This document shows, piece after piece, positions 3,746 through 45,532 of a DNA stretch of 64,000 nucleotides. The stretch lies in NCBI RefSeq assembly GCF_963675165.1, contig NC_087377.1, forward strand, positions 16,968,518-17,032,517. The letters are read 5' to 3'. The translations under genes and the position numbers were made by a program. Within the stretch, counting starts at the first letter, position 1, and each line of letters opens with the position of its first letter. The notes below the pieces were generated by a model, which ran no database searches, was not told the DNA's origin, and saw nothing but the letters and a program-made list of their open reading frames with translations. Origin of the DNA: Halichondria panicea (lineage: Eukaryota; Porifera; Demospongiae; Suberitida; Halichondriidae).

Positions 3746-6551
3746 ATGTCTGACTATCTCACAATAGCAGATCTAGGAGATCTATACATAGCTACGTTTG
3801 ATGCTCGAATCAAGTTGAGAAACTTCTTGCTAGTTCTTAAAATACCCTCGGATATCATTGACAGAATTGGGAAAGATTGGAGCAACAATCCTGATGACTG
3901 CTATCGTGAGGGTTTGAAAGAATGGCTGAAGGGTGAAGAGAGAAGCTGGGAAGATGTTATCAAAGCTTTGTCAAGTCCTATCGTAGGCCATGTTCACTTA
4001 GCCAAGACCATCGAGAAAGATCATCTACAGTCTACTGGTCCAAGCAATCCTACTGATGTGAAGTCAGAGGGTGAGCACACACACACACACACACAATGTT
4101 TTTACAGTTGACGAAAATCACCAGAAGATCAACGATGATTTGACTGTTTTCCTAGACGAGCTACTAGGTAAAGGTGCATTTGGAGCAGTCTTCAATGGTA
4201 GCTACAAGGGCGAGATTTGTGCAGTCAAACTTCTAATTTACGAGGCTGTAGAAATGCAGACAGGTTTCCCAACAGGAAAAAGTGAAGAAGCCAGCAAAGC
4301 ATTTGATCGTGAGTGTGAGTATCTCCAGTCACTCCAGCACCCAAACGTTGTTCTGTATTTATCGACTGCCAAGCATCCCAAATCAGGTGGTACAATCCTC
4401 GTTGTTGAGCTGATGGATTGCAATCTGAGATCCTATTTCTCTAGCCTTGATGAAGAGTCTCTCACTAGCAAATAGGAAATTAGCCTCTCCAAAGACATGG
4501 CTTGTGGTCTGGCCTACATTCACAGCAAGAAGATTATCCACCGTGACCTCTGTGGTGATAAGGTCTTGCTGAAGCTTACACGACCAGTGCCTGTTGCAAA
4601 GATATCCGACTTTGGAATGTCACGGCTATACGATCCCTCCAAGTTTAGCCACACCCTCACAGCCATTGGTCACCGTATGGGGTATCTACCTCTCGAGGCT
4701 ATTCGATTGGGCAAGGAGAATTACGATAATAGCGTCGATGTTTTTTCCCTTGGGGTGATTATGGTACAGATTGTTTGCAAGCTGAAGACGATCAAATCTG
4801 TGGAAGATCGATCATTCCATGTTGCCCAGATACCTCACACACACAGGTTGAGGAAGCTTATCGACAGTTGTTTGCAAGAAGACATGAGGAGGAGACCATC
4901 TGCCAGGGACATCTGTGAGTCAATGATAAGTATAATATTATTATGTGTTTTACGTTTCAGCTATCTGTAACCCTAACGAAAAAATCATGTCCGTCTATTA
5001 ATGTTGGTATCGATTTTAGATACTTACCTGACAACAAGCTCGGACCCAGTGGAGGCAACAAAGAAGGAGTCAAAGGACACTGAACAAGTCAAGAAGGTGC
5101 GTACATGTAGTGTGATAATGAGATTCCCACAGCAACAATAGTATTGTACCTTAACATGCATGGATGCTGTCTCATGTGTTAAGCCGTAATTACACATCCG
5201 TTTGAGTGTGCCTATAATTATGTATACTTCCTTTAGTGAAGACTGTCTCGTTCTGTTATAGAATTTTCTCTAATGTTATTCATGTCTGTGTTTGATTTCC
5301 ACCAACGTTCCCCTGTACAGGCACACAGGGAACAAATTGGGCACAAAATTGGGCACAAAGATGCTGAGCTGGTCAGGAGAGACGCCATCATTCAACAGCA
5401 GAGACAGGTGAGACAAAATGCACCATTATATTATTGCAGAGCTATAGTAGAAGCTTTGATCTCTTATAATCATACTGTACATTCTATTAGACTGGTGGGC
5501 GTGGCTTCTTAAGCTAATTAGAGAAAGTGATTTAGTGTGCATGCAATTATTGCTACAAGTAACACTCGCTTGTTAGTAGACACTATCCTAATTACACTCA
5601 TTCATTATTCAGGGTCCCCCTCCCAGAGAGTTGAGACCTCCACTCACTCTGAAATGGAGAAGAGGAAAAGACATGCCAATCAAGATGGGTGACTCGGTAC
5701 AGAGTGTTGTTATCGGTGACACGGTGTATGTTGGTGGAGGGTTTGCAGTCAATGATCGTGACAAGTGTACGGTGATGAAGCTCGAGCAAGATCAATGGAC
5801 CAAACTACCAGAGTACACTGCCAAGCGCTTCGCTATGACATCACTCGCTAATCGACTAGTGTTGGTGGGAGGAAATAATCCAAGAAACAAAAAACGCACC
5901 AATCAGCTTGCAGTGTTTGAATCAGGGGAATGGACTCACCCGTACCCACCAATGAACATTGCTCGTGATTTCTCAACCGCTGTCTCCTTCAACAACCACA
6001 TCATTGTAGCTGGTGGGGATGATGATAAACGACGTGCCCTCTCCTCTGTGGAGGTGTTGGACGTGGCATCAAGAAGATGGTACATTGCTCAGTCACTACC
6101 TAACCCACGATCAGAACTGAAATCGACTCTCATAGGAAACACCCTCTACCTAATGGGAGGATACGATCACACTCTGAGTGCAACCAAGACAGTGTACCAC
6201 GTCGACCTCACTGAACTCGTCGCAAAGGCCCATTCGAACCTGGACACACCCACTCTCTGGCAGACCTTACAGGAAGTACCACTCGTGTTGTCAGCTCCTC
6301 TCAGTATTGGGAGGTCACTATTAGCCGTTGGTGGATGGGACGGAGACAACTCAAGTTCATCGATCCACCTCTACCAGCCTGACACCAGGAGGTGGGTGAA
6401 AGTGGGAGACCTGCCTACTGCACGATACCGCTGCACATGCTCAGTACTTCCTAGTGGAGAGGTCATTGTAGCCGGAGGAGATAGACAGACAGCAAGTAAT
6501 TATAATATTATTATTCAAACTGTTGATTTCTTCACTATAAGTGCTAATTAG
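3746..6551 (+). pseudogene. Gene A: Death domain-TKL-like kinase-Kelch fusion, with a nonsense codon
   Basis: Five exons: 3746-4070, 4108-4914, 5020-5096, 5321-5407, 5613-6551. They sum to 2235 bases (745 codons) in one frame. A non-coding 5' exon ends near 3608. Domains in order: Death domain (about residues 5-100, ending in a WEDVIKALSSPIVGH-type helix), kinase (about 128-375), short charged linker (about 404-432), six Kelch repeats (about 445-744). Kinase motifs are GKGAFGAV, the AVK lysine, HRDL and DFG. Lesions: TAG at 4473-4475 (codon 231), where paralogues read Glu-Cys, and the Asn of HRDLCGDN replaced by Lys, removing a metal-binding residue. Death plus kinase is the IRAK/Pelle arrangement; adding Kelch is unusual. 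It may still yield a Death-domain fragment. Confidence 0.85.
4076..4096. repeat. CA microsatellite beside gene A splice acceptor
   Basis: A CA run fills most of the 37-base intron between exons 1 and 2 and lies about 10 bases from the acceptor at 4107. Longer CA runs hold the same position in genes C and E. Confidence 0.8.
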
Positions 6552-6750
6552 TTATTTTGTTATATTAATTGTTTCTCTTTAATTGTGCGATGAGTTTATA
6601 ACGATATTTTTTTTATCATGTTGAGAAAATTAAGTTGCAACAGAATTTTATCGCATATAATTATAGTTATTATGATGACATGAAGTGGTACATACATAAT
6701 TACATTGCCAGAAAATAGTACAAAAACAGACAAAATAATATTTAACAGTC

Positions 6751-9720
6751 TCATAACAAGTTCAGGTCCTTGATTGGGGTCTTGTCCGAGGGTGGGGTGG
6801 ACGCCTTCTCCCAGAATCCAAAGTCTATCTCCTCTTCCGAGTCAGACAGTGAGGGGTGGGGCTCGGGAACTGAGGGGTTAAAGAGTCACATGATCATAGT
6901 CACACTGCATGAGTGGAAGTTTGAGGGCTTAGGAAGTAAGGGGTGAGAAAATCACATGATAACAGTAGCTATAATTTATACTGGCTAAATGCAAAATGGC
7001 TCAACTATGATAAAGGGACACCACACAACACATGTACTGGTATACAATATGTACGTACTTACATGCTGAAGTGCCTACCCACACAAATAATCAAAGTGTT
7101 ATACAATAGTAAGCAGTAGTGTACAATAGTATGTATGATCTGGCTAAGCAAGTAACGGGAGTAATAAAATAAAACTAGACTATAGGCTGAAACTTTTGAG
7201 AAAAGAGTTTTAGTAGAATCATAGACACGTACTTTATTGCACTACATAATTATACTTCCAGTGAAACAGTAAAACTACTACTGTACTCTATAATTTATAG
7301 AACCCCTATAGAGTGACAAGATTAAGTAGGCAATTGCAAGAAAACGTATGTACAGGTATCGATCACTGCAACTCTACACACTAACTGACGTGACACAACT
7401 CACTAGTCGAGCCACTTTGATTTCTTGCTCTTGGACTTAAACAGAGCCGAGTCAGCACTCATCCTGTGCAACAGAGAACAGTTAGCTACTTAACTTCTTG
7501 GGAGACAATAAAAAGAGTGATTGTGCTTTATCTGCATTCAAGTGGTTGTATAGTGGTAACAGTGTTAGCATGTACCGTAGCAGGTGAGGTGCAACATTTC
7601 ACGTTTTTCGGGGCAGAGCAGCTAACGTGAACATTAAAACTGGGATAAAGCTATTGATGGGTGTGGTTTCCTAACATTGATACGTGAATATTAGACCCCA
7701 TGAACATTTCTGATAGCCCAAGAGCCGCTATACAGCAAAACTAAGGATTATGATGACTGTTTTACAAAACACTACACGATGACCTTTACCTAGTATGCTC
7801 CAATATAATACTAAGATCTTACCTAACATAACACGTTATAATAACAGTAAGTAAATAACAGGACCTTTACCTAATAGCGAGAGGTGCTTCTCTTTGTACT
7901 CATTTTTCCGCTCCTTCTCAAAGTCCTTACATAAACTTTTACCTCCAGTTTGGTGAAACAAGCAAAAACGGAATTATTTTGCTCCTGTAGGGTAGAGGCT
8001 GAGGACTCTATAGTCGCCTTGTCTCTGTGGCAGGGGTGAGTGAGGGGGCGTGTGTTTGCGTGTGTGCAGAGAAACGAGGGTAACTAGTAAAATCAATAAT
8101 TCAATTATGATATGAGAGAATACAGATGACCTTAATCAAAACTTGCAGTTAAGCATGGGCTTATAATCGAGTAAGCGCTAATAATCCAGTTTCTACAGGT
8201 ACAATAACCAATACTCTAGCCTTTATAGGAGTACTAAAACAGGGCCCACACTAGTTGGTGGCAACATTCCTGTCCTATGAATTGCATTTTATGACGTGTT
8301 CAAATAGTTATTCATGGACACAGGCACGTAAACCACAAATTAGAACTAACAATTAACTAACGCATATAAATAAGCATAATCACAATTTGCAGAACGGAGC
8401 TTTGGCTCCAACATGGTCTCAGACAAGGCCCAAGGCTACGGCCCAAAGGCCCCGTCAGGCAGAAATATGACTTGTGCATAAACAAATGGCTCTGGCCAAA
8501 CACAAAAAGTGTGAAAACTCCTAATATTGATTCCAGTAGGACACTTCTAGGAGAGTTGTCCTTTTGGGTACTACAGAGCATTTATAAAGTCCACTGCTAA
8601 GCAACAATTATACAACCAACTGAAAATGCATTCTCAATATGCAATAATAAATAGATGTCCTTTTTGCCAGCTAGTTTCGTAGTTCTGGATGGGGATCAAT
8701 CCCGTACATGTACAATGCTAATACTAAGATCATCATGGCAGATTGTTCATGCATGCACGAGCTCAAAGACAGATTATTATGGCCTGGGGGTATGCACATT
8801 TTGACATTCGAAATTTGGGAAAAGCTATTTCACAATTATAATATGATTGCATTTACCGGAGAGGTGTGGAGGAGGCAGTGACCACTGGAGAGAAGCTTGC
8901 TCTCGGAGGTTTGAACTCTTGGGCATTCAGGTTGAACTTGACGTCTTTGCATTGGGGTTCAGCTTGAACATAGCCCTGAGGAATTGCAAACTCAGTACAC
9001 GTACACGTACATGTACTAAACTATGCGTGTTATTTAAATATTGTCTACGCTTATTTTCCACAATTTGGGCATGAATTTCATACTGATTTAAGCACACTAT
9101 GCACTATAAAGAAGCTACCGTATATAGCGGGTATATTTCGAGGGTATTAAAAAGGTAGACTGGCGCGTAGCGCGAGCGACTGGCCAACTGCTTATCAGTC
9201 ACTCGTCTCAGCGGAATATATGGATCATAATTATGACACTACCAAACATGAATATCATTATAGATAATGTGGTTATATTTTGCTATGAGATTTAGCTACT
9301 ATGGAATGTACTGAATCCCCTGAAGTGTAAGTGTGGTTAAAATTACAGAGCTAATATGACGTTGAGCAATCTGATAGGCTGCAATGCTCGTTGCAGCTGA
9401 GACGAGTGACTGATAGGCAGTTTGCTAGTCCCTCGCGTGCGTAGGCTCCTCAACATAGATGTACTATTTACTAGTTTACAACAGTTTTTCCGGACCATCC
9501 AAATACAATACTTGGGTACAGTGAACATGAAAATGTTGGCAGTAGGTATATCCTGATAGGATATTAAATAACAACACTATCACTCACTCATCATCCTGAG
9601 TTTGTAATCAGACTTGCATCTTTATGAGCAGCTTCGTCATGTAGGATCATCTGATTGGCCAGGAACTTGCCATTCCCACCTCCTCAGCAATGGTCTCTCT
9701 CCATGGTCCTGGTTATGTCA
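6751..9720 (-). CDS. PAM2-motif gene, copy 1 (exons partly resolved)
   Basis: Several minus-strand exons are conserved in three block copies. A likely last exon runs from about 6859 or 6869 down to the stop at 6751 and reads SLSDSEEEIDFGFWEKAS, ending DLNLL. An exon at about 7405-7465 reads SADSALFKSKSKKSKW. Coil-like exons at about 7870-8030 contain DKATIESSASTLQEQNN and KDFEKERKNEYKEK. Exon 8858-8975 carries NLNAQEFKPPRASFSP, matching the PAM2 consensus (LNxxAxEFxP) used to bind the MLLE domain of poly(A)-binding protein. A short exon at about 9600-9690 may belong. A PABP-linked role in RNA metabolism is inferred. Exon phases do not all join, and I cannot name the family. It is convergent with gene A. 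Confidence 0.42.
8858..8975 (-). CDS. PAM2-like exon (intact in this copy)
   Basis: Flanked by an acceptor (CCTCAG) and a donor (GGTAAATG) on the minus strand, this 118-base exon is open throughout. Its core reads KFNLNAQEFKPPRA. The Leu, Ala, Glu-Phe and Pro positions fit the PAM2 motif seen in ataxin-2, PAIP and eRF3 proteins. In the copies near 33.4 and 47.35 kb the Gln codon of the motif is TAA. Confidence 0.5.
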
Positions 9721-9755
9721 CTGTGGTCTACAAATTATAGGACTGGACACAAAGC

Positions 9756-10374: not shown

Positions 10375-10449
10375 ACACAAAGCCTCCACCTAACACTGAC
10401 ACAATAGTTAGCCACTTGTTCCATGTTCTATCCAAGGGTGCTGGGTGAC

Positions 10450-10561: not shown

Positions 10562-13500
10562 ATGTTTTCTTTGCGAGATGATGCTGACTTGAGGGAGTTT
10601 GTGCTGGAGAATGTGGAGCACTTTGGAGAGGAGAGAGTTCTAGGAACTGGCTCCTATGGCTCTGTTCAAGAAGTCAGTCACTAGCACTGCAGGCTCTGTT
10701 TCTGTGCACTGTCTCTAGTGTATATATCTGCTAGCTATTCTAGTGTGACTGCCTCCATGCACAGGTGATGATCAATGGTGAGGTGTATGCAGCCAAGAAG
10801 ATCCACGAGGTTCTCCTGGAGACGGACGAGCGTGGTGGAGTGGCCAACCTAGCTGGGAACTACCGCCGAGAGTGTCGACTCATGGCTCGCATCCGTCACC
10901 CCAACATCACCCAGTTTATTGGGCTGTGTTTCGTTACTGGCTCTCGACTGCCCCTCCTGGTCATGGAGAGGCTAGACTCAAGTCTGGACGATCTCCTGGA
11001 GTCCACCCCCAACATCCCCCTCTCTGTCACCCAGTACATTCTGGTCTGTGTGGCTCGAGGGCTGCTCCACCTGCATCGTGAATCCGTGGTCCATCGTGAC
11101 CTCACTGCCAGGAACGTCCTACTGACGGCATCTCTGAGAGCCAAGATCACAGACTTTGGTAACTCTCGTATCGTGAATCTGGAGCCTGGTCGACTGGCCA
11201 GGACTCTGATGAGGTTTCCTGGGACACTGGTGTACATGCCGCCCGAGGCCCTCTCTGACAGAGGTCACAGTGTGTACGGACCCAGTCTGGACGTCTTCTC
11301 TTTCGGAGTGCTACAACTGTTTGCACTCACACAAGTATGTGTGTAGTTAATGATATTCATAGGTTAGATTCCTGGTGACCTTTCATGCAGTGAATTACCT
11401 TATAAGTATTGTGGTTGTATGTGTTGGGGAGATCCCCCTTTAATATTGTTGACCTTCAGCAAATGCATTTTGTATGTGTATGATTGTGAATATACGTGCA
11501 CTCATTTTCTCCAGACATACATAAAAACAATCATGACAGTCAGTATTCACATGTTCTTTCACTCGTGTCATTGGACTAGGTGTTTCCAGGAGATCTCCTT
11601 GCCCCCACGTACAGCGACCCCAACAACCCAGACCACCTCCTGGCTCGCTCAGAGTTTGAGCGTCGAGGTCCCTACACGGCTCTCCTTGAGAGGAGTCTGG
11701 CGGGTGGACGTGAGCACCCTCTGTTTGGTCTGGTGAGGGAGTGTCTGGCCAACACCCCAGAGAGAAGACCGACCACCGCTGAGCTCCTCTCGTCTCTGGA
11801 GGAGGTGGAGAGGGAGATGGACGGAGGACTGCTCCTGCTGGACATTGGACGAGTGAAGACTGCCAGGACCCTCAGGGCAAAGGAGAAGAGGATAGAGGCT
11901 CTACAGGTGAGTCCAGTCCAGTGAGCTAGTAGGTGCAAGGGTCTGACACTGCATGCTGTACTCTGTTTTCAGAGAGAGGTGGTCCAGAAGGACAGGATAC
12001 TGGAGAGGAAAGATGAGCAAATAGTACAGAAAGATGAACAACTTACTGAGAAAGATGAGCAACTTACTGAGAAAGATGTACTTCTTGTGCAAAAAGACGA
12101 TCAACTAGATCAAAAAGACAGACTTCTGGCACAAAAAGATGAGCTACTTGTTCAAAAAGATGAGGAAGTAGCGGACAAAGATACTCAGCTGGCTAGACTG
12201 CAACAGGTCAGCAGAACCATCGTTTATTTCGTTTATTATAAGCTATTTTGTTCCACGAGCTAACATGTTGATAACCTTTTTTCATACAGGTATTGAATAG
12301 TGTCCGTGCTAATGCTGCCACCAAAGATGGTATGATTGCTGACAAGGACAGACAACTCAGTGAACAAGAGTCAAGGATCACTGATCTCATTTCTCAGAGA
12401 GAGGCTGCTCTAGTTGAGAGGGCCGCTCTCTTACAGGTATTATAGTAGTCACCAAATGCACACACTCTTATACGCTAGTATTATACTACAATAATGATAT
12501 TTGTTTGCGTACATGTAGCTAAGTGTGTCAATGAGATTCCAACAATAGTAGTATACCTCAACAATTGATGCTATTGTATAAATCATGTTAAGCCGCTAAC
12601 TACACATCCGTTTGAGTGTGCCTATAATTATGTACTTCCTTTAGCGGAAATTGTCTCGTTCTGTTGTAGAATTTCCACTAATGATATTCACGTCTGTGTT
12701 TTAGATTTCCACCAACGTTCCCCTGTACAGGCACACAGGGAACAAATTGGGCACAAAGATGCTGAGCTGGTCAGGAGAGACGCCATCATTCAACAGCAGA
12801 GACAGGTGAGACAAAATGCACCATTATATTATTGCAGAGCTATAGTAGAAGCTTTGATCTCTTATAATCGTACTGTACATTCTATTAGACTGGTGGGCGT
12901 GGCCTCTTAAGCTAATTAGAGAAAGTGATTTAGTGTGCATGCAATTATTGCTACAAGTAACACTCGCTTGTTAGTAGACACTATCCTAATTACACTCATT
13001 CATTATTCAGGGTCCCCCTCCCAGAGAGTTGAGACCTCCACTCACTCTGAAATGGAGAAGAGGAAAAGACATGCCAATCAAGATGGGTGACTCGGTACAG
13101 AGTGTTGTTATCGGTGACACGGTGTATGTTGGTGGAAGGTTTGCAGTCAATGATCGTGACAGGTGTACAGTGATGAAGCTCGAGCAAGATCAATGGACCA
13201 AACTACCAGAGTACACTGCCATGTACTTTGCTATGACATCACTCACTAATCGACTAGTGCTAGTGGGAGGAATTGATCCAAAAAACAACAAACGTACCAA
13301 TCAGCTTGCAGTGTTTGAGTCAGGGGAATGGACTCACCCGTACTCACCAATGAACATTGCTCGTAATTCCTCAACAGCTGTCTCCTTCAACAACCACATC
13401 ATTGTAGCTGGTGGGCGTCATGATAAAGGACGTACCTCCTCTGTGGAGGTGTTGGACGTGGCATCAAGAAGATGGTACATTGCTCAGTCACTACCTAACC

Positions 13501-13937
13501 CACGATCAAAACTGTTATCAGCTCTCATAGGAAACATCCTCTACCTAATGGGAGGGTACGATCACACTATGGTGGCAATCAAGACAGTGCACCACGTCGA
13601 CCTCAATGAACTCATTGCAAAAGCCCTTTCCAACCTGGACACACCCACTCTCTGGCAGACCTTACAGGAAGTACCATTCGTGCATTCAGCTTCTCTCAGT
13701 ATTGGGAGGTCACTATTAGCCGTTGGTGGAGCGGACAACAGACGCAACCCAAGTTCATCGATCCACCTCTACCAGCCTGACACCAGGAGGTGGGTGAAAG
13801 TGGGAGACCTGCCTACTGCACGACACAGCTGCACATGCTCAGTACTTCCTAGTGGAGAGGTCATTGTAGCCGGAGGACAGACAAAACCATTGGGTAATTA
13901 TGTTCAAACAGTTGAATTCTTTTGTATAAGCGATTAA
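10562..13937 (+). CDS. Gene B: kinase-coiled-coil-Kelch protein, intact
   Basis: Seven exons: 10562-10672, 10765-11334, 11580-11906, 11973-12206, 12290-12436, 12731-12805, 13011-13937. All are phase 0 and total 2391 bases (796 aa). The first ATG opens MFSLRDDADLREFVLENVEH. The kinase domain (about residues 25-310) has GTGSYGSV, the AAKK lysine, HRDLTARN and DFGNSR, and all key catalytic residues are present. Residues 337-463 are a coiled coil with a KD-centred heptad repeat (QKDEQL, EKDVLL and similar). A linker (AHREQIGHKDAELV) and six Kelch repeats (about 489-796) follow. There is no Death domain, and the kinase differs clearly from that of A, C and E, while linker and Kelch are nearly identical. 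No signal peptide or membrane segment is seen, so it is probably cytosolic. The Kelch domain is the likely ligand- or substrate-recognition part. Confidence 0.9.
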
Positions 13938-18920: not shown

Positions 18921-19712
18921 TTAACATGGTTTAAAAATAATTTGATTATGAGGGTGACGGGGGGAAGGGCGAGGATGGAGGGTGAAAACATTGGGAGATA
19001 TTATAGATAAATTATTAAGTATATTAAAGCAGACTTTCAGTTTTTGGTTTTTCCTTCGAGATGACAGAGGTTTCCAGTTTAAGGAGGCAAGCAGGTCAGG
19101 GTATTCTGCCCTCCACTGCTTCGTTACAATTTTCCCTGCAAATTTTTGGACGCTTTCCAGTTTTTTTATATCTGTGTGGTGATGAGGGTCCCAGACTGCA
19201 CCGCAATAGTCTAACTTAGGCAGAACAGCCGTGCGGTAGATCTGGTTCCTGATCTGAGGTGGTGATTTATGGAACTTGCGATGGATGAAGCCAAGATGTT
19301 GTTTGGCCTTCTTGCAGGTGTTGTGTATGTGACATGCCCATTTTAGATCATTATTGACAGTAACACCAAGGTACTTTACAGTATCACATGGGGAGATCCG
19401 ATGGTTGTTTATATCTATATTCATTGGGATAGTGCGTGTAGAGCGAGTTATTGTAAGCAGTTTGGTCTTGGAGTGGTTTGCTGTGAGGCCGTGAGATTGC
19501 ATCCAGGAGTTTATTTCATTGACGTCTCCCTGTAGGTCCTGAGTAAACACAGGAGAGATGGTTGTGACTGGAGGAGAGATAGTAGTGGTCCCCAGTGGAA
19601 AGACAGACGGTGGTGGCTGGTGAAGAGGAGACTTGGCTATAGACTTGTAGAACTTGACCATCAATATATTAATGATTTTATAGCAATTATACATGTAAGT
19701 ATGCAGTGTCAT
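18921..19712 (-). pseudogene. Non-LTR retrotransposon reverse transcriptase, C-terminal fragment
   Basis: A 263-codon open frame reads NEINSWMQSHGLTANHSKTK, then YLGVTVNNDLKWACHI, KKAKQHLGFIHRKF, and YRTAVLPKLDYCGAVWDPH. This is the palm-end and thumb region of jockey/CR1-like reverse transcriptases. The FADD catalytic box and the endonuclease are missing, so it is 5'-truncated. The minus-strand poly(A) lies about 270 bases downstream, as expected for a LINE 3' end. Any start codon is incidental. Confidence 0.8.
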
Positions 19713-28251: not shown

Positions 28252-28651
28252 ATGTCTGACTATCTCACAATAGAAGATCTAGGTGATCTATACATAGCTA
28301 CGTTTGATGCTCGAATCAAGTGGCGAAATTTCTTGCTGGTTCTTAAAATATCCTTGGATACTATCGACAGCATTGGTACGAAATGGAGAGACGATCCTGA
28401 TGACTGCTACTGTGAGGGTTTGAAAGAATGGCTGAAAGGTGGTGAGAGACGCTGGGAAGATGTTGTCAAAGCTTTGTCAAGTCCTATTGTGGGCCACGTT
28501 CACATAGCCAAGACCATCGAGAAAGATCATCTACAGTCTACTGATGCAAGCAATCCTACTGATGTGAAGTCAGAGGGTAAGCACTAGTTCAGCACAGGAA
28601 TGCATATCTCATACATGATGTTAGCTACTATATATTCACCCCCCCCCCCCC

Positions 28652-28694: not shown

Positions 28695-31078
28695 ACACAC
28701 ACAATGTTTTACAGTTGACCAAAATCACCAGAAGATCAATGATGATTTGACTGTTTTCCTAGACGAGCGTCTCGGTAAAGGTGCATTTGGAGCAGTCTTC
28801 AAAGGCAGCTACAAGGGCGAGATATGTGCAGTCAAAGTGCTGCTTCACGATGCTATGGAGATGCAGGCAAGTATTCCTGTCGGCAAAAACGAAGAAGCTA
28901 GCAATGCAATTGATCGTGAGAGTGATTTTCTCAAGTCGTTCCAGCACCCAAACGTTGTTCAGTTTTTGTCGACTGCCAAGCACCCAAAATCAGGGAGTAC
29001 AATCCTCGTTGTTGAGCTAATGGATTACAATCTGAGATCCTATTTCTCTGGCCTTGATGAAGAGTCCCTCACTAGCGAATGTGAAATTAGCCTCATCAAA
29101 GACATGGCTTGTGGTCTGGCCTACATTCACAGCAAGCAGATTATCCACCGTGACCTCTGTGGCGATAACGTCTTGCTGAAGCTAACACGATCAGTGCCTG
29201 TTGCAAAGATTTCTGACTTTGGCATGTCACGGCTATATGATTCCTCCAAGCTTAGCCACACCCTCACAGCCATTGGTCACCGTATGGGGTATCTACCTCT
29301 CGAGGCTATTCGATTCGAAGAGGAGAAATACGATAGCAGCTTGGATGTGTTTTCCTATGGGGCGATTGTGACGCAGATTGTTTGCAGGCTGGGGACGATC
29401 AAATCAGCCAAGGATCGATCATTCCATGTTGCCCAGATCCCTCTCACACACAGGTTGAGGAAGCTTATCGACAATTGCTTACAAGAAGACATGAGGAGGA
29501 GACCATCTGCCAGGGACATCTGTGAGTCAATTATAATTATGTGTTTACGTTGTAACTATAATGATATTCGCTGTATAATGTTGGTTGTTTACTTTAGATG
29601 CTTACCTGACAAGAGGCTCGGACACAGTGGAGGCAACAAAGAGGGAGTCAAAACACACTGGACCAGTCAAGAAGGTGCGTACATGTAGTGTGATAATGAG
29701 ATTCCCACAGCAACAATAGTATTGTACCTTAACATGCATGGATGCTGTCTCATGTTTTAATCACATCCATTTGAGTGTTATGTACTTCCTTGTGAAAATT
29801 GTTGCTTGTTCTTGTTCTGTAGAATTTCCACTAATGATATTCATGTCTGTGTTTTTTAATTCCCTTGTACAGGCACACAGGGAACAAATCGAGCACAAAG
29901 ATGCTGAGCTGGTCAGGAGAGACGCCATCATTCTGAATAACAGCAGAGACAAGTGAGACAAAATACACAATTATTATTATTATTACAGAGCTATAGTAGA
30001 AGCTTTGATCTTATGATCGTACTATACATTCTATTAGACTGGTGGGCGTGTCCTCTTAAGCTAATTAGAGAAAGTGATTTAGTGTGCATGCAATTATTGC
30101 TACAAGTAACACTCGCTTGTTAGTAGACACTATCCTAAATTACACTCATTCATTATTCAGGGTCCCCCTTCCAGAGAGTTGAGACCTCCACTCACTCTGA
30201 AATGGAGGAGAGGAAAAGACATGCCAATCAAGATGAGCTTCTCGGTACAGAGTGTTGTTATCGGTGACACGGTGCATGTTGGTGGAGGTGATGCAGGCTA
30301 TGATCGTGACATGTGTACAGTGATGAAGCTCGAGCAAGATCAATGGACCGAACTACCAGAGTACACTGCCAAGTACTCCACTATGACATCACTCGCTAAT
30401 CGACTAGTGCTGGTGGGAGGACAGGATCCAAGAAACAACAAACGCACCAATCAGCTTGCAGTGTTTGAATCAGGGGAATGGACTCACCCGTACCCACCAA
30501 TGAACATTGCTCGTGATTCCTTAACAGCTGTCTCTTTCAACAACCACATCATTGTAGCTGGTGGGCGTGATGATGAAGTACGTACCTCCTCTGTGGAGGT
30601 GTTGGACGTGGCATCAAAAAGATGGTACATTGCTCAGTCACTACCTAACCCACGATCAGTACTGAAATCGACTCTCATAGGAAACACACTCTACCTAATG
30701 GGAGGGTTCGATCACATTGGGGCAACCAATACAGTGCATCACGTCGACCTCAATGAACTCATTGCAAAGGCCCTTTCCAACCTGGACACACCCACTCTCT
30801 GGCAGACCTTACAGGAAGTACCATTCAAGTGGTCAGCTCCTCTCAGTATTGGGAGGTCACTATTAGCCGTTGGTGGACAGGTCGACAGATTCCACCTAAG
30901 TTCATCGATCCTCCTCTACCAGCCTGACACCAGGAGGTGGGTGGAAGTGGGAGACCTGCCTACTGCACAACTCAGCTGCACATGCTCAGTACTTCCTAGT
31001 GGAGAGGTCATTGTAGCCGGAGGAGAGACAGGTGTATACACTCCAACTGTTGATTTCTTCTCTATAAGTGCTAATTAG
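28252..31078 (+). pseudogene. Gene C: Death-kinase-Kelch fusion with a 5-base frameshift
   Basis: Exons: 28252-28576, 28715-29521, 29598-29674, 29873-29952, 30161-31078. Death domain and kinase are complete: GKGAFGAV, AVKVL, HRDLCGDN and DFGMSR are all present. The short linker exon is 80 bases instead of 75, because TGAAT is inserted after GCCATCATTC. The frame is then lost and meets TGA just inside the Kelch exon. Skipping this phase-0 exon would restore the frame and give a Death-kinase-Kelch protein with a shorter linker. A truncated Death-kinase protein is the alternative. The Kelch exon itself is open (306 codons). The upstream promoter was separated from the USF partner by the KDZ insertion and has no CACGTG pair nearby. 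Confidence 0.83.
28639..28703. repeat. (C)n(CA)n tract beside gene C exon 2 acceptor
   Basis: Sixteen C residues are followed by about 24 CA units ending 11 bases before the acceptor AG at 28713-28714. Confidence 0.9.
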
Positions 31079-34721: not shown

Positions 34722-37700
34722 ATGTTTTCTTTGCGAGATGATGCTAACTTGAGGGAGTTTGTGCTGGAGAATGTGGAGCACTTTGGAGAGGAGAGAGTTC
34801 TAGGAAGTGGCTCCTATGGCTCTGTTCAAGAGGTCAGTCACTGCATGCTCTGTTTTTGTGCACTGTCTCTAGTGTATCTGCTAGCTATTCAAGTGTGACT
34901 GCCTCCATGCACAGGTGATGATCAATGGTGAAGTGTATGCAGCCAAGAAGATCCACGAGGTTCTCCTGGAGACGGACGAGCGTGGTGGAGTGGCCAACCT
35001 AGCTGGGAACTACCGCCGAGAGTGTCGACTCATGGCTCGCATCCGTCACCCCAACATCACCCAGTTTATTGGGCTGTGTTTCGTTACTGGCTCTCGACTG
35101 CCCCTTCTGGTCATGGAGAGGCTAGACTCAAGTCTGGACGATCTCCTGGAGTCCACCCCCAACATCCCCCTCTCTGTCACCCAGTACATTCTGGTCTGTG
35201 TGGCTCGAGGGCTGCTCCACCTGCATCGTGAATCCGTGGTCCATCGTGACCTCACTGCCAGGAACGTCCCACTGACAGCATCTCTGAGAGCCAAGATCAC
35301 AGACTTTGGTAACTCTCGTATCGTGAATCTGGAGCCTGGTCGACTGGCCAGGACTCTGACGAGGTTTCCTGGGACACTGGTGTACATGCCGCCCGAGGCC
35401 CTCTCTGACAGAGGCCACAGTGTGTACGGACCCAGTCTGGACGTCTTCTCTTTCGGAGTGCTGCAACTGTTTGCACTCACACAAGTATGTGTGTAGTTAA
35501 TGATATTCATAGGTTAGATTCCTGGTGACCTTTTATGCAGTGAATTACCTTATAAGTAGTGTGGTTGTATGTGTTGGGGAGATCCCCCTTTAATATTGTT
35601 GACCTTCAGCAAATGCATTTTATATGTATGATTGTGAATATACGTGCACTCCTTTTCTCCATACATACAGACATACATAAAAACAATCATGACAGTCAGT
35701 ATTCACATGTTCTTCCACTCGTGTCATTGGACTAGGTGTTTCCAGGAGATCTCCTTGCCCCCACGTACAGCGACCCCAACAACCCAGACCACCTCCTGGC
35801 TCGCTCAGAGTTTGAGCGTCGAGGTCCCTACACGGCTCTCCTTGAGAGGAGTCTGGCGGGTGGACGTGAGCACCCTCTGTTTGGTCTGGTGAGGGAGTGT
35901 CTGGCCAACACCCTAGAGAGAAGACCGACCACCGCTGAGCTCCTCTCGTCTCTGGAGGAGGTGGGGAGGGAGATGGACGGAGGACTGCTCCAGCTGGACA
36001 TTGCACGAGTGAAGACTGCCAGGACCCTCAGGGCAAAGGAGAAGAGGATAGAGGCTCTACAGGTGAGTCCAGTCTAGTGAGCTAGTGGGTGCAAGGGTCT
36101 GACACTGCATGCTGTACTCTGTTCTCAGAGAGAGGTGGTCCAGAAGGACAGGATACTGGAGAGGAAAGATGAGCAAATAGTACAGAAAGATGAACAACTT
36201 ACTGAGAAAGATGAGCAACTTACTGAGAAAGATGTACTTCTTGTGCAAAAAGACGATCAACTAGATCAAAAAGACGGACTTCTGACACAAAAAGATGAGC
36301 TACTTGTTCAAAAAGATGAGGAAGTAGCAGACAAATATACTCAGCTGGCTAGACTGCAACAGGTCAGCAGAACCAGTTTATTTCGTTTATTATAAGCTAT
36401 TTTGTTCCACGAGCTAGCATGTTAATAACCTTTTTTTATACAGATATTGAATAGTGTCCGTGCTAATGCTGCCACCAAAGATGGTGTGATTGCTGACAAG
36501 GACAGACAACTCAATGAACAAGAGTCAAGGATCACTGATTTCATTTCCCAGAGAGAGGCTGCTCTAGTTGAGAGGGCCGCTCTCTTACAGGTATTATAGT
36601 AGTCACCAAATGCACACACTCTTATACGCTAGTATTATACTACAATAATGATATTTGTTTGCGTACATGTAGCTAAGTGTGTCGATGAGATTCCAACAAT
36701 AGTAGTATACCTCAACAATTGATGCTATTGTATAAATCATGTTAAGCTGCTAAATACACATCCGTTTGAGTGTGCCTATAATTATGTACTTCCTTTAGCG
36801 GAAATTGTTGTTCTCGTTCTGTTGTAGAATTTCCACAATGTTATTCACGTCTGTGTTTTAATTCAAAGATTTCCACCAACGTTCCCCTGTACAGGCACAC
36901 AGGGAACAGACTGAGCACAAAGATGCTGAGCTGGTCAGGAGAGACGCCATCATTCAACAGCAGAGACTGGTGACACAAAATGCACCATTATATTATTGCA
37001 GAGCTATAGTAGAAGCTTTGATCTCTTATAATCGTACTGTACATTCTATTAGACTGATGGGCGTGGCCTCTTAAGCTAATTAGAGAAAGTGATTTAGTGT
37101 GCATGCAATTATTGCTACAAGTAACACTCGCTTGTTAGTAGACACTATCCTAATTACACTCATTCATTATTCAGGGTCCCCCTCCCAGAGAGTTGAGACC
37201 TCCACTCACTCTGAAATGGAGAAGAAGAAAATACATGCCAATCAAGATGGGTACCTCGGTACAGAGTGTTGTTATCGGTGACACGGTGTATGTTGGTGGA
37301 GGTAGTGCAGACAATGATCGTGACAGGTGTACAGTGATAAAGCTCGAGCAAGATCAATGGACCAAACTACCAGGGTACACCACCAAGTGGTTTGCTATGA
37401 CATCACTCGCTAATCGACTAGTGCTGGTGGGAGGACATGATCCAAGAAACAACAAACGCACCAATCAGCTTGCAGTGTTTGAATCAGGGAAATGGACTCA
37501 CCCGTACCTACCAATGAACATTGCTCGTTCTTCCTCAACAGTTGTCTCCTTCAACAACCACATCATTGTAGCTGGTGGGCGTAATGAAGAACCTACCTCC
37601 TCTGTGGAGGTGTTGGACGTGGCATCGAGAAGATGGTACATTGCTCAGTCACTACCTAACCCACGATCAGGACTTAAATCGACTCTCATAGGAAACACCC

Positions 37701-38101
37701 TCTACCTAATGGGAGGGTGGGATCACACTGGGTGTGCAACCAAGACAGTGCACCACGTCGACCTCAATGAACTGATTGCAAAGGCCCATTCGAACCTGGA
37801 CACACCCACTCTCTGGCAGACCTTACAGGAAGTACCACTCATGTGGTCAGCTCCTCTCAGTATTGGGAGGTCACTATTAGCCGTTGGTGGACGAGACGAC
37901 AGACGCAACCCAAGATCATCGATCCACCTCTACCAGCCTGACACCAGGAGGTGGGTGAAAGTGGGAGACCTGCCTACTGCACGATACTGCTGCACATGCT
38001 CAGTAGTTCCTAGTGGAGAGGTCATTGTAGCCGGAGGACAGACAAAACTGTTTACTGCATATACTCCAACTGTTGATTTCTTCTCTATAAGTGCTAATTA
38101 G
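34722..38101 (+). CDS. Gene D: kinase-coiled-coil-Kelch protein, intact
   Basis: Exons: 34722-34832, 34915-35484, 35736-36062, 36129-36362, 36444-36590, 36895-36969, 37175-38101. All are phase 0, with the same lengths as gene B (2391 bases, 796 aa). Kinase motifs GSGSYGSV, AAKK, HRDLTARN and DFGNSR are conserved. One change in the catalytic segment (NVLL to NVPL) could weaken activity. The KD-heptad coiled coil and six-blade Kelch follow. Kinase and coil are almost identical to B, while the Kelch differs at the loop positions described in the findings. It is the only other uninterrupted member of the array. Confidence 0.9.
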
Positions 38102-38348
38102 TTAATTTGTTAAAAATTGCTTCTCTTTGATATTGTGCGTTAACGATAATTATGAATTTTTTTATTATGTTCTAAAGTTGCAACAGAATTTCATCGTACA
38201 TAGTTAATACGATGGCATGAAGTGGTACGTACAAGAACAAACAAAGTAATATTTAACAGTTGGTTTCTCTTTGCAATCTTGATATTATTATCTTGCATGT
38301 CGGAAAAAAAACTTTTTTATTAAGTCCAACAAAAATATGACATAAGAC

Positions 38349-38999
38349 ATTCCAAGAAACAACAAACGCACCAATCAGCTTGCAGTGTTTGAATCAGGGA
38401 AATGGACTCACCCGTACCTACCAATGAACATTGCTCGTTCTTCCTCAACAGTTGTCTCCTTCAACAACCACATCATTGTAGCTGGTGGGCGTAATGAAGA
38501 ACCTACCTCCTCTGTGGAGGTGTTGGACGTGGCATCAAGAAGATGGTACATTGCTCAGTCACTACCTAACCCACGATCAGTACTGAAATCGACTCTCATT
38601 GGAAACATCCTCTACCTAATGGGAGGGTACGATCACACTGGGTGGGCAACCAAGACAGTGCACCACGTCAACCTCAATGAACTCATTGCAAAGGTCCTTT
38701 CCAACCTGGACACACCCACTCTCTGGCAGACCTTACAGGAAGTACCACTCGTGTGGTCAGCTCCTCTCAGTATTGGGAGGTCACTATTAGCCATTGGTGG
38801 GCGGGAAGACAGAGCCAACCCAAGTTCATCGATCCACCTCTACCAGCCTGACACCAGGAGGTGGGTGAAAGTGGGAGACCTGCCTACTACACGATATTGC
38901 TGCACATGCTCAGTACTTCCTAGTGGAGAGGTCATTGTAGCCGGAGGACGGACAGATTCATTTGAAACTGTTGATTTTTTCTCTATAAGTGCTAATTAG
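38349..38999 (+). pseudogene. 5'-truncated Kelch exon, tandem duplicate behind gene D
   Basis: From CCAAGAAACAACAAACGC onward it copies the gene D Kelch exon starting in blade 2. It has no first blade, linker, kinase or acceptor, and runs open to the usual stop. The first half is almost identical to gene D, while the later blades differ at the variable positions, suggesting duplication followed by conversion. It is preceded by a second copy of the Kelch-gene 3' flank (38,102-38,260). Confidence 0.85.
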
Positions 39000-39331: not shown

Positions 39332-39418
39332 TAGTTATTATGATGACATGAAGTGGTACATACATAATTACATTGCCAGAAAATAGTACAAAAACAGACA
39401 AAATAATATTTAACAGTC

Positions 39419-40600: not shown

Positions 40601-40691
40601 GGTCTATAGTAGAGAGAAAACACGTGAACAGTACTTACTACGAATTATGGTCAAACAATAATAACTGTACACACACAAGCACGTCTTAAAA

Positions 40692-41820
40692 CGATTGCCT
40701 CACACGAGATCAACTCCCACGAGATCAATTCTTACCAGATCAACTTTGCATGAGATCAATTGTTAGTAGATCAACTCTCATAGAATCAACTTTTCATAGG
40801 ATCAACTCAACTCCTGAAATCAACTCAAATCAACTCTAATCTTGTTATCCAGAGATTAACTTTTTAAAGGTGTTGGCCTCACTTTTTTAGCTAATTACTA
40901 TTGTGCATGTGCGCCCATACCAGAGATTGGCAGGTATTGAGTAATAAGCCCCTATAGATTTAGCACAATGCACGCTCATTCACAATGGCTCAATCATCAA
41001 GAATTCCAGAAGAGCTATAGGAAAGACTTTGAGAGGTATATCTACACGAAAATAAGACGTACATTTTATGGTATCTGTGGCATTTTATGCACTGACATTT
41101 GTTAACAGCCTGGCTTGCCATCCAACAAACAGTGACGAGCTAGTGGACTATTTCATGCACTTACATGTAGTACAACCTGGACCAATGGAAACATTCACTT
41201 TCAATCACATCAGAGAGCTTAGAGCTAGGATGATGTTACTGCGTTCTATCGTGATAAGCGCCACTGAACTGATCAACCTGTTAAACTACTATATATGGTA
41301 TGTAATCCTATAGGCCCTCTAATAACCAACACCCACTCAAGTCAATGGCCCACACTTTAAAGGTGCTGTTTCAAATTCTTACCCATCCAGCCGTACAGCC
41401 TGTAGTAGTACTGAACAGTATAATGGCAGCTGCAAAAATTCATCCAACAGGCATCCGATTAATATGGCATCCAACCAAAACAAAGATTCAGAGCTACATG
41501 CATGCATGTTTGTAGCTACATCTCGGCCATAGAGACGCAAAATAAAAGAGAAGAATCCATACAAAGACTGTTTGACTGCTTCAATACATGAGGCATGACC
41601 CTGGAGAGTATATTTATTTTACCAGCCATCAAGCATCTTAATTGTAAAAATTGGAAGTGTAGCGGTTTTTTGTAAAACTGAGTTGATCACATGAAGTTGA
41701 TCCTATGAAAAGTTGATTCTATGAGAGTTGATCTACTAACAATTGACCTCGTGCAAAGTTGCTCTGGTAAGAATTGATCTCGTGGGAGTTGATCTCATGA
41801 AAGTTGATCTCGTGTGCACA
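40692..41820. mobile_element. TIR element with GATCAA-array ends
   Basis: Both ends are inverted arrays of about seven units of 15-18 bases built around GATCAACT (40,692-40,805; complement at 41,683-41,820). Between them are about 870 bases with a 81-codon open frame at 41,068-41,313 that I do not recognise. Outside lies a direct repeat of about 98 bases (40,590-40,690 and 41,828-41,925), far longer than a normal target duplication. Confidence 0.7.
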
Positions 41821-42189
41821 CATTAAATCCTCAGGTCTAGTAGGGAGAAAACACGTGAATAGTACTTACTACGAATTAGGGCCTAACAATAATAACTGTA
41901 CACACACAAGCACGTCTTCAAACACTGCACATGTAACCAAGGCAATGGCTATAATAGTCTCAAGCAACTTCACCATAACACGACCCCTGGCTATATAAGG
42001 TCAAATACTTGTGTCATTAGAGCCCTTGTCAGAGCTTGCTACATGACGGTAGTCTACTGGCGCACTCTTCAACATACTATTTAAAAGTTTCAAACAGCTT
42101 TCCGGACAATCTAAACAAAATCAAATGCGTCCTATAGGAATAGTGTACATGAAAATGTTGGCAGTAGGTATATCCTATCAGGCTATTAA

Positions 42190-42460
42190 ATAACAACACT
42201 ATCACTCACTCATCATCCTGAGTTTGTCATCAGACTTGCATCTTTACGAGCAGCTTCGTCATGTAGGATCATCTGATTGGACAGGAACTTGCCATTCCCA
42301 CCTCCTCAGCAATGGTCTCTCTCCAGGCTATGGTCCTGGCTATGTCACTGTGGCTCACAATAGGACTGGACAAAGCCTCCAGCCCCTCGCTCCATCCCAG
42401 GCAATAGATTTTGGTCATGCTTCAAAACGTGATTTGCTGATTCATCATTGTTATTGCAGA
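42190..42460 (-). pseudogene. 5' fragment of the PAM2-motif gene
   Basis: It repeats the sequence found at 9,580-9,745 and 34,060-34,240 (CATCATCCTGAGTTTGTCAT and onward), directly upstream of gene E. Other exons are absent. It carries the degenerate equivalent of the B/D promoter but no CACGTG. Confidence 0.4.
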
Positions 42461-42617
42461 TCTGGTAGACGACAAGTATTGTTTTTTCTACTTGCTGCGA
42501 TCTGAATAAAGTCTCTGGATTTAATCAGTGAGTAGTGCAGACAGCACTGATTACAATGTACATGATTCAGATGCAATTTTTGGCTCTATACATTCATACT
42601 TATCTTTTACAGAGAAG

Positions 42618-43034
42618 ATGTCTGACTATCTCACAATAGCAGATCTAGGAAAACTATACATAGCTACGTTTGATGCTCGAATCAAGTGGCGAAACTTCTT
42701 GCTGGTTCTTGAGATATCCTCGGATACCATCGACAGCATTGGTACGAAATGGCGAGATGATCCTGATGACTGCTATCGGGAGGGTTTGAAAGAATGGCTG
42801 AAAGATGGGGAGAGACGCTGGGAAGATGTTGTCAAAGCTTTGTCCAGTCCCATCGTGGGCCACAGTGACATAGCTAATACCATCGAGAGAGATCATCTAC
42901 AGTCTACTGATGCAAGCAATCCTACTGATGTGAAGTCAGAGGGTAAGCACTAGTTCAGCACAGGAATGCATATCTCATACATGATGCTTAGTTTATTAGC
43001 TAGCTACTATAATATTCACCCGGGTCCCTCTCAT

Positions 43035-43069
<35 letters not shown>

Positions 43070-45532
43070 GTTTTTACAGTTGACGAAAATCACCAGAAGA
43101 TCAACGATGATTTAACTGTTTTCCTAGACGAGCTACTTGGTAAAGGTGCATTTGGAGCAGTCTTCAAAGGCAGCTACAAGGGCGAGATTTGTGCAGTCAA
43201 ACTTCTAATTTACGAGGCTGTAGAAATGCAGACAGGTTTCCCAACCAGCAAAAGTGAAGAAGCCAGCAAAGCATTTGATCGTGAGTGTGAGTATCTCCAG
43301 TCACTCCAGCACCCAAACGTTGTTCTGTATTTGTCGACTACTAAGCACCCCAAATCAGGTGGTACAATCCTCGTTGTTGAGCTGATGGATTGCAATCTGA
43401 GATCCTATTTCTCCGGCCTTGATGAAGAGTCTATCACTAGCGAATGTGAAATTAGCCTGTCCAAAGACATGGCTTGTGGTCTGGCCTACATTCACAGCAA
43501 GAAGATTATCCACCGTGACCTCTGTGGTGATAACGTCTTGCTGAAGCTAACACGACCAGTGCCTGTTGCAAAGATTTCCGACTTTGGCATGTCACGGCTA
43601 TATGATCCCTCCAAGCTTAGCCACACCCTCACGGCCGTTGGTCACCGTATGGGGTATCTACCTCTCGAGGCTATTCGATTGGACAAGGAGACTTACGATA
43701 ATAGCGTGGATGTGTTTTCCCTTGGGGCGATTATGGTACAGATCGTTTGCAAGCTGAAGACAGTCAAATCTGTGGAAGATTGATTAGACCATGTTGCCCA
43801 GGTCCCTCACACACACAGGTTGAGGAAGCTTATCGACAGTTGTTTGCAAGAAGACATGAGGAGGAGACCATCTGCCAGGGACATCTGTAAGTCAATTAGT
43901 GTTGTACATTTTACCGCAAATAATTTGTAAGTCAATTTGTGTGTTGTACGATTCCGAAATTTTATTCGGAAAAAGTTCCTTATTGAAGATTTAACTTTTA
44001 CTTTAGATGCTTCACTGACAAGCGACTCTGACACAGTGGAGGCAACAAAGAGGGAGTAGTATTATACTACAATGATGATATTTGTTTGCGTACATGTAGC
44101 TAAGTGTGTCGATGAGATTCCAACAATAGTAGTATACCTCAACAATTGATGCTATTGTATAAATCATGTTAAGCTGCTAAATACACATCCGTTTGAGTGT
44201 GCCTATAATTATGTACTTCCTTTAGCAGAAATTGTTGTTTGTTCTCGTTCTGTTGTAGAATTTTCTCTAATGTTATTCATGTCTGTGTTTGATTTCCACC
44301 AACGTTCCCCTGTACAGGCACACAGGGAACAAATTGGGCACAAAGATGCTGAGCTGGTCAGGAGAGACGCCATCATTCAACAGCAGAGACAAGTGAGACA
44401 AAATGCACCATTATATTATTGCAGAGCTATAGTAGAAGCTTTGATCTCTTATAATCGTACTGTACATTCTATTAGACTGGTGGGCGTGGCCTCTTAAGCT
44501 AATTAGAGAAAGTGATTTAGTGTGCATGCAATTATTGCTACAAGTAACACTCGCTTGTTAGTAGACACTATCCTAATTACACTCATTCATTATTCAGGGT
44601 CCCCCTCCCAGAGAGTTGAGACCTCCACTCACTCTGAAATGGAGAAGAGGAAAAGATATGCCAATCAAGATGGGTACCTCGGTACAGAGTGTTGTTATCG
44701 GTGACACGGTGTATGTTGGTGGAGGGTTTGCAGTCAATGATCGTGACATAATTTATGTACAGTGATGAAGCTCGAGCAAGATCAATGGACCAAACTACCA
44801 GAGTACACTGCCAAGTTTTTCGCTATGACATCACTCGCTAATCGACTAGTGCTGGTGGGAGGACGTCATCCAAGTATCAACAAACGCACCAATCAGCTTG
44901 CAGTGTTTGAATCAGGGGAATGGACTCACCCGTACCCACCAATGAACATTGCTCGTTGTTCCTCAACAGCTGTCTCCTTCAACAACCACATCATTGTAGC
45001 TGGTGGGTATGATGATAAAGGACGTACCCTCTCCTCTGTGGAGGTGTTGGACGTGGCATCAAGAAGATGGTACATTGCTCAGTCACTACCTAACCCACGA
45101 TCAAAACTGAAATCGACTCTCATAGGAAACACCCTCTACCTAATGGGAGGGTGGTATCACACTGTGATGCCAACCAAGACAGTGCACCACGTCGACCTCA
45201 ATGAACTGATTGCAAAGGCCCTTCCCAACCTGGACACACCCACTCTCTGGCAGACCTTACAGGAAGTACCACTCGTGCGGTCAGCTCCTCTCAGTATTGG
45301 GAGGTCACTATTAGCCGTTGGTGGACGGGACGACAGTGTCAACCCAAGTTCATCGATCCACCTCTACCAGCCTGACACCAGGAGGTGGGTGAAAGTGGGA
45401 GACCTGCCTACTGCACGAGACTGCTGCACATGCTCAGTACTTCCTAGTGGAGAGGTCATTGTAGCCGGAGGACTGACAGATTCATTTCTTTATATTCAAA
45501 CTGTTCATTTCTTCTCTATAAGCACTAATTAG
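42618..45532 (+). pseudogene. Gene E: Death-kinase-Kelch fusion, recombinant and broken
   Basis: Exons equivalent to A: 42618-42942, 43080-43886, 43994-44056 (truncated), 44318-44392, 44598-45532. Death domain and most of the kinase are present with all catalytic motifs. Lesions: CGA to TGA at 43781-43783 (codon 343); exon 3 cut at AAAGAGGGAG and followed directly by TAG, with its donor gone; and a net 5-base change in Kelch blade 1 (ACATAATTTATGTACAG), causing a stop. Sequence after 44,056 matches the intron of B and D (12,475 and 36,630) rather than that of A and C, so the gene is a crossover product. The rest of the Kelch exon is open from 44,762. Confidence 0.87.
43038..43067. repeat. CA microsatellite beside gene E exon 2 acceptor
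   Basis: About 15 CA units end 12 bases before the acceptor AG at 43078-43079. Confidence 0.9.

Follow-up and report, generated by a model that had tools for sequence, protein, structure and literature searches.

A 64,000-nucleotide stretch of the Halichondria panicea genome (the window; positions 16,968,518–17,032,517 of an 18,138,809-base contig, in a genome of 131 Mb) carries five genes, A–E, that join an N-terminal signaling module to a terminal Kelch propeller, together with a partial Kelch copy, F (Table 1). These genes belong to a large tandem family in which a nearly constant propeller is hypervariable at the same two loops of every blade. Gene D is intact: Its seven exons encode 796 aa in the order N-terminus, kinase (two exons), coiled-coil-like repeats (two exons), short coil, and Kelch, and, once joined, they translate into a sequence sharing 99% identity with P0121, the annotated H. 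panicea counterpart of gene D. Gene C runs from a death-domain-like exon through kinase and short coil exons to Kelch. The short coil exon was recovered by pattern in 15 of 34 copies, and the 14 matched copies other than gene C have it in frame, at 75 or 87 nt.

The Kelch profile PF01344 scores 105.7 bits in the gene A exon (cut-off 20.1), and the protein kinase profile PF00069 scores 130.4 bits in gene C; by eye, the kinases keep the HRD and DFG motifs and the glycine loop. A first-pass annotation, made from the DNA letters, had listed copy-specific motifs for each Kelch copy. Those of A, B, C, D, and E are legible in stop-to-stop translations. Copy F, a plus-strand 3′ fragment, matches the variants of D in some places and carries private ones in others. 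The window also holds three probable transposon remnants, at 18921–19712 (minus strand; a weak reverse transcriptase match), 48574–49569 (plus strand; a long open frame without a Pfam match), and 56817–57455 (minus strand; an rva_4 integrase core), and Rfam at gathering thresholds returned no match in it.

Table 1. Exons and related features of the kinase–Kelch genes in the window (ORF, open reading frame).
Feature	Position	Strand	Basis
Gene A (type I), death-domain-like exon	3746..4069	+	tblastn with an annotated type I N-terminus as query, 80% over 108 aa
Gene A, kinase exon region (ORF bounds), in-frame TAG at 4473-4475	4076..4970	+	ORFs, Pfam kinase
Gene A, Kelch exon (variable cassette), open	5613..6551	+	ORF, Pfam; splice acceptor TTCAG/GGTCCC
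Gene B (type II), exon 1, N-terminus	10562..10672	+	Alignment with gene D
Gene B, exon 2, kinase	10765..11334	+	Pfam, alignment with gene D
Gene B, exon 3, kinase C-lobe	11580..11906	+	Alignment with gene D
Gene B, exon 4, coiled-coil-like repeats	11973..12206	+	Alignment with gene D
Gene B, exon 5, coiled-coil-like	12290..12436	+	Alignment with gene D
Gene B, exon 6, short coil (the same coil also precedes type I Kelch exons)	12731..12805	+	
Gene B, Kelch exon (variable cassette), open	13011..13937	+	Translation, alignment
Gene C (type I), exon 1, death-domain-like	28252..28576	+	FADD-like by profile
Gene C, exon 2, kinase	28715..29521	+	HRD and DFG motifs by eye
Gene C, short coil exon of 80 nt, not in frame with the presumed donor	29873..29952	+	Pattern match
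Gene C, Kelch exon (variable cassette), open	30161..31078	+	
Gene D (type II), exon 1, N-terminus	34722..34832	+	
Gene D, exon 2, kinase	34915..35484	+	HRD and DFG motifs by eye
Gene D, exon 3, kinase C-lobe	35736..36062	+	
Gene D, exon 4, KDEQL-like coiled-coil repeats	36129..36362	+	
Gene D, exon 5, coiled-coil-like	36444..36590	+	
Gene D, exon 6, short coil	36895..36969	+	
Gene D, intron before Kelch exon, nearly invariant over 32 genes	36970..37174	+	
Gene D, Kelch exon (variable cassette), open	37175..38101	+	
Copy F, Kelch exon 3′ fragment	38346..38999	+	Translation
Gene E (type I), death-domain-like exon	42618..42941	+	Sequence alignment
Gene E, kinase exon region	43073..43978	+	tblastn, 75%
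Gene E, Kelch exon, frameshift near 44747	44598..45532	+	Translation, alignment

Searching the genome at the protein level with the gene A Kelch exon gave 457 first-look candidates, 125 of which were scored as Kelch exons (118 distinct). The family thus has at least 125 such exons; because scoring was confined to the best candidates, the total and the proportion of intact copies (a stop lies inside 3 of the 125) are both skewed toward good copies. Window copies A–D are among them, with E (frameshift) and F (fragment) outside. The terminal Kelch domains of ten annotated H. panicea proteins, when checked, equaled genome exons at 0 mismatches. Two blocks on the window's own contig (C1) hold 104 of the 125, on the minus strand at 15.48–16.14 Mb and on the plus strand at 16.71–17.39 Mb; the remainder lie at 10.98–11.03 Mb (4) and on contigs C6 (13), C28 (3), and C12 (1). 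The C1 array is mirrored, one block's genes lying on the minus strand and the other's on the plus strand, and identical Kelch exons occur in both blocks (e.g., L038 = L119 and L120). Dense arrays of kinases 45–51% identical to the type II kinase occupy C3:0.87–2.46 Mb and C11:4.4–6.5 Mb.

Aligned over 315 columns, the 118 distinct Kelch coding sequences are mostly conserved, with a median entropy of 0.25 bits per column. Hypervariable positions recur in all six blades in two places: the D-A loop, just before inner strand A, and the B-C loop, just after the Gly-Gly. Entropy peaks at offsets −15/−14 and +1 from each blade's Gly-Gly, plus some of +3 to +8; the exceptions are blade 4, low at −15 (0.7 bits), and blade 6, with 0.3 bits at −14 and a rise to 1.3 at −16. 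The first-pass annotation had proposed two hotspots per blade and listed them for blades 2–6; blade 1 follows suit (winA residues 34–35 and 51, 53). Eighteen core sites average 2.23 bits vs. 0.53 for random 18-site sets, none of 20,000 of which reaches 2.23, and shifting the core sites by one residue lowers their mean to 1.02 or 0.84; the core offsets and loop windows were chosen after the entropy had been seen and were retested on six protein groups not previously used. Relative to the rest of the domain, core sites are enriched in S, R, Y, C, W, and F. Some variable positions at the C-terminal end fall outside the propeller core, where the alignment is uncertain.

A confident AlphaFold model of the Kelch domain is a closed multi-bladed propeller, Keap1-like by structural alignment. 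When the DSSP string of that model is used to assign loops by hand, columns above 1.5 bits make up 28 of 117 D-A/B-C loop residues, 0 of 44 A-B/C-D residues, and 2 of 124 others, so that the variable sites are not scattered over the fold. The D-A and B-C loops of Keap1 bind substrate, according to the accessible text of PMC4668279 and PMC6720452; the earlier placement of the variable positions on the Keap1 substrate face is consistent with that text and with the structural alignment. If the face is taken as 24 residues, 106 distinct faces occur among the 118 sequences and differ on average at 14.7 positions.

Nonsynonymous change is concentrated in the same loops. Nei–Gojobori counting over all pairs gives a ratio of nonsynonymous to synonymous differences per site (pN/pS) of 1.94 (codon bootstrap 1.47–2.67) across the 66 codons of the D-A and B-C windows, and of 0.49 in the other 239 codons; pN is 0.278 in the loops vs. 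0.040 elsewhere, about sevenfold, whereas pS rises less than twofold. Whole C-D loops, as delimited by DSSP, give a pN/pS of 0.57. Codon models on a fixed tree place ω at 3.14–3.51 for 62 loop codons and at 0.47–0.58 elsewhere, with a cost of 156 log-likelihood units for forcing ω to 1 in the loops (Muse–Gaut model, MG); a tree built from framework codons gives 3.42 and 0.49. Pairwise counting and codon models therefore agree on a dN/dS above 1 at the loops and near 0.5 in the framework, as diversifying selection, suspected at first pass, would have it. Of the two outcomes that the first pass had named as fatal to its reading, randomly placed variable sites and a loop dN/dS not above 1 and no higher than in the framework, neither was seen. 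Variability at codon positions 1, 2, and 3 is 0.282, 0.298, and 0.165 in the loops and 0.038, 0.031, and 0.058 elsewhere.

Genes B and D, which are recent duplicates, reproduce this contrast at short range. Between them, 20 of 970 positions differ in the six introns and 27 of 1464 in the N-terminal exons (by codon, 18 nonsynonymous and 9 synonymous), whereas the Kelch exon differs at 75 of 923 positions by nucleotide alignment, or at 85 by codon alignment, which places gaps otherwise near the end. Codon differences in the Kelch exon number 48 nonsynonymous and 1 synonymous in the loops vs. 24 and 12 elsewhere (Fisher P = 9e-5); over the well-aligned residues 8–295 the counts are 40 and 1 vs. 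18 and 9. Upstream, the intron before the Kelch exon has a diversity of 0.5–2.8% per 50-bp bin across 32 genes, below the exon's synonymous sites. This ~200-bp intron is a conserved or homogenized cassette border, shared by genes with different N-terminal modules.

At least three such modules precede the Kelch cassette: a death-domain-like region plus kinase (type I), a kinase plus coiled coil (type II), and a kinase-less module (type III). Typed by the nearest upstream kinase match (≤6 kb), 70 of the 125 copies are type I, 40 type II, and 15 neither; five kinase–Kelch distances exceed 5 kb, and those assignments are possibly wrong. The type III N-terminus occurs without a kinase in annotated proteins P0160, P0161, P0163, and P0164. 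It gave no usable Pfam or PDB sequence match and has, at most, a CARD-like look. IRAK4 chains are among the best PDB sequence matches of the type II kinase; the 60 matches listed for the type I kinase include CTR1, LIMK1, Eph receptors, and B-raf, with IRAK4 absent. Pfam at E ≤ 0.001 lists no BTB, BACK, or NACHT domain in the ten proteins scanned, nor does the precomputed Pfam list of P0121. With no signal peptide or membrane span evident, judged by eye rather than by predictor, the proteins appear to be intracellular. On C6, a contig of 7,592,338 bp, protein P0147 has a type II kinase–coil, then a truncated Kelch start, and after it an AIG1/IIGP-like GTPase domain, an architecture suggesting that the C-terminal part, for recognition or effector function, has been exchanged.

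Kelch frameworks do not follow gene type. In a nearest-neighbor test that took in 66 type I and 40 type II sequences, 106 distinct ones in all (85 in the main cluster), the neighbor statistic for framework codons was reached by 862 of 1000 shuffles over all 106 and by 892 of 1000 in the main cluster, where mean framework codon difference is 0.103 within types and 0.099 between them. The PHI recombination test is strongly positive (0 of 500 permutations, 85 main-cluster sequences). Types I and II thus draw, with recombination, on one mixed pool of Kelch frameworks. Loop codons argue against complete mixing: Their same-type affinity is 0.626 vs. 0.524, reached by 1 of 1000 shuffles over all 106 and 41 of 1000 in the main cluster, probably through recent duplicates. 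At the protein level, among 33 annotated proteins (representatives of 90% clusters, so that similar pairs are underrepresented), N-terminal modules differ by 5–7% (types II and III) or 16% (type I) and the Kelch framework by ~8%; core Kelch sites differ by 62–68% in C1 and type III proteins and by 40% in the C6 set. The contrast between 5–16% in the modules and 40–68% at the core sites marks a design of constant signaling and variable recognition.

Isoforms predicted by NCBI bear on whether exchange extends to RNA. At LOC135352306, P0155 (type I) and P0165 (type III) share Kelch exon L045, and P0159 and P0165 have an identical 471-residue type III module with different Kelch exons (L004 and L045) ~16 kb apart; these predictions may reflect combinatorial splicing or an annotation artifact of near-identical copies. 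A combinatorial system, in which hypervariable Kelch cassettes, with the near-invariant intron as their border, are swapped among at least three modules by DNA conversion or recombination and perhaps also at the RNA level, is an idea we hold only tentatively and consider doubtful. If true, it would give each individual its own set of faces, possibly with cell-specific expression too.

A comparison between individuals through database proteins proved unusable, since a database clustered at 90% is expected to return dissimilar representatives. Exact matches to the 125 exons, in a tally that omits 6 of the 120 listed proteins (P0055, P0060, P0085, P0100, P0106, and P0111), number 21 of 21 for contig 955651, 20 of 20 for 848138, 10 of 16 for 1115423, 3 of 14 for 246388, 0 of 4 for 631535, 1 of 36 for small contigs, and 2 of 3 for named H. 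panicea records. Contigs 955651 and 848138 appear to come from the same individual.

The variable sites recur in other kinase–Kelch proteins. Relatives of the full type II protein are kinase–Kelch proteins, mostly at 26–34% identity among the matches listed; three come from Geodia barretti (P0170, P0172, and P0173), and another, with the EukProt label Em0016g262a, is presumably from Ephydatia muelleri, by its prefix. The retest used 25 of these kinase–Kelch proteins, about 30% identical, sorted by mutual similarity into six groups with 3 to 6 members each. Mean pairwise difference is 0.46–0.77 at the core sites vs. 0.11–0.28 in the rest of the domain; all six groups are higher at the core, and random site sets reached the core value in 0, 0, 0, 18, 0, and 3 of 5000 draws per group. 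This recurrence suggests that the variable-face design is old in sponges, in groups whose species may overlap. For the type I N-terminal half, every named match at ≥55% identity belongs to H. panicea; three others, P0245, P0249, and P0250 (69–86%), are without a name.

We regard the Kelch family as probably an intracellular repertoire of recognition receptors under diversifying selection. This reading draws on the observed site pattern, selection among paralogues, predicted fold, gene structure, mixing of type I and type II frameworks, recombination, and recurrence elsewhere. A constant six-bladed propeller would display the D-A and B-C loops of all blades on one face, and diversifying selection would drive the face residues apart, leaving most genes with a different binding face. 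That face would be coupled through the coiled-coil exon to a type I, II, or III signaling module; ligand at the propeller would release the protein or cause it to cluster, with the kinase or death-fold module relaying the signal. We infer that the face binds a ligand, that clustering is what activates the protein, and that the role is in immunity or self-recognition; microbe recognition is our first guess, self-recognition our second, and specialization on endogenous partners a further possibility. As far as the accessible text of PMC6208332 and PMC8242945 goes, two other sponges each down-regulate a single gene with a Kelch motif when exposed to microbial molecules (PMC6208332), lipopolysaccharide elicits a response from H. 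panicea kinase genes, a subset of which have DEATH domains (PMC8242945), and receptor expression in this species is largely individual-specific (PMC8242945); these results fit a recognition role but are not proof of it for the genes described here. Searches of open-licence literature on sponge immunity, kelch, kinases, and allorecognition yielded, among the papers listed, no description of this kinase–Kelch family, nor did we find an open-licence paper combining H. panicea with kelch.

Vertebrate-type adaptive immunity is not known from sponges, and the family bears on how they distinguish microbes, symbionts, and kin. If diversifying selection is confined to the binding face, the family would be a large and unexpected candidate set of animal recognition receptors, with at least 125 cassettes, most of them after kinase exons. 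With the hypervariable residues defined, ligand searches and population tests are feasible now.

Several observations weigh against recognition by a selected face. Every dN/dS value compares paralogues of one genome, not individuals. Strong recombination breaks tree models and makes tree-based ω approximate. Over whole DSSP-based loops the pN/pS signal weakens to 1.60 (B-C) and 1.19 (D-A), and the A-B loops reach 1.24, on few changes and a very small pS. Synonymous diversity is itself higher in the loops (pS 0.14 vs. 0.08; fourfold sites 0.095 vs. 0.055, or 1.7–1.8 times), so that a locally raised mutation rate or an older coalescence plays a part. Across the 250 bp 3′ of the Kelch exon, sequences differ by a mean of 11% among 31 genes, and the first 200 bp by 16% in another comparison; set against 1.7% in the upstream intron, this leaves no flank safe as a neutral yardstick, although the loop-vs.-framework contrast inside the exon is independent of any such yardstick. 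All 11 profile matches of the death-domain-like module are to FADD, at a weak best E of 0.0035; a subthreshold Pfam Death match appears in 3 of 8 type I module members (best E 0.009) and is absent at E ≤ 10 for two single type I module sequences, and the AlphaFold model of the module failed (predicted local distance difference test score, 44). All three type I genes in the window look damaged, A in its kinase, C in the frame of its coil exon, and E in its Kelch exon, where a frameshift puts the first 57 residues in a different frame; both type II genes, B and D, are open.

The damage in A, C, and E would suit pseudogenes in decay or surface loops whose constraint has been relaxed. We find that account hardly credible: Relaxed sites are expected at ω near 1 and the loops show >3, the loops of the opposite face are invariable, and stops are rare among the scored exons, albeit in a search that favors intact copies. 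Targeted hypermutation or retro-mutagenesis at loop codons, with little selection, could explain the excess of synonymous and fourfold diversity, as well as the enrichment of A at second codon positions (0.39 vs. 0.24). It appears very improbable nonetheless, with second positions varying above third (0.30 vs. 0.17), pN raised about sevenfold against a pS raised less than twofold, ω above 3, and the same sites recurring in other kinase–Kelch groups.

Two further alternatives accept selection on the face and assign it another purpose; we judge each unlikely, with a chance that is nonetheless far from negligible. The face could be the docking surface of ordinary paralogous kinases specialized on endogenous partners, with no immune role, much as BTB-Kelch ligases select different endogenous substrates with the same face; a loop ω above 3 on a framework ~92% identical in protein, together with cassette exchange, fits a continuing arms race better. 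Alternatively, the propellers could tell self from non-self instead of detecting microbes, in allorecognition once two sponge individuals have fused. Allorecognition loci usually have few genes and many alleles, unlike the 125 or more copies in one genome here; yet that genome does hold many distinct faces, and the selection signature is that of the Podospora het-d/het-e propellers, which function in allorecognition, as the accessible text of PMC1805685 describes them.

An intracellular recognition repertoire of this kind can be set beside several known systems. Sponges carry large expansions of NOD-like receptors (NLRs) and scavenger receptors, and the NLRs group mainly by species, as far as the available portions of PMC12909245 and PMC8242945 report; those expansions use other recognition and signaling domains, and Kelch goes unmentioned in the available portion of PMC12909245. 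BTB-Kelch proteins (KLHL; Keap1, KLHL20) have BTB and BACK domains, which are not listed in the sponge relatives scanned. KLHL genes are not known to form a hypervariable tandem array. IRAK and RIP kinases pair a death domain with a kinase; type I genes have the same order, death-domain-like region then kinase, with the IRAK4 matches belonging to the type II kinase, and the sponge genes differ in adding a C-terminal Kelch recognition domain. The closest likeness in selection is to the HNWD genes of Podospora (het-d, het-e). In the accessible text of PMC1805685, four WD40-unit codons are positively selected, all of them on the interaction platform, at the d-a loop and the b-c turn, and the HNWD/NWD genes form a multigene family that includes allorecognition genes and whose propeller framework is homogenized by exchange. 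Selection thus acts at the same two topological places of the propeller in both. The fungal system has WD40 repeats, near-identical within a gene, a NACHT domain, and 10 members, whereas the sponge genes have Kelch propellers and kinase or death-fold modules; HNWD is a convergent parallel that works alike, not a homologue. If our reading is true, the sponge Kelch face would be clearly convergent with the WD40 propellers by which fungi recognize non-self.

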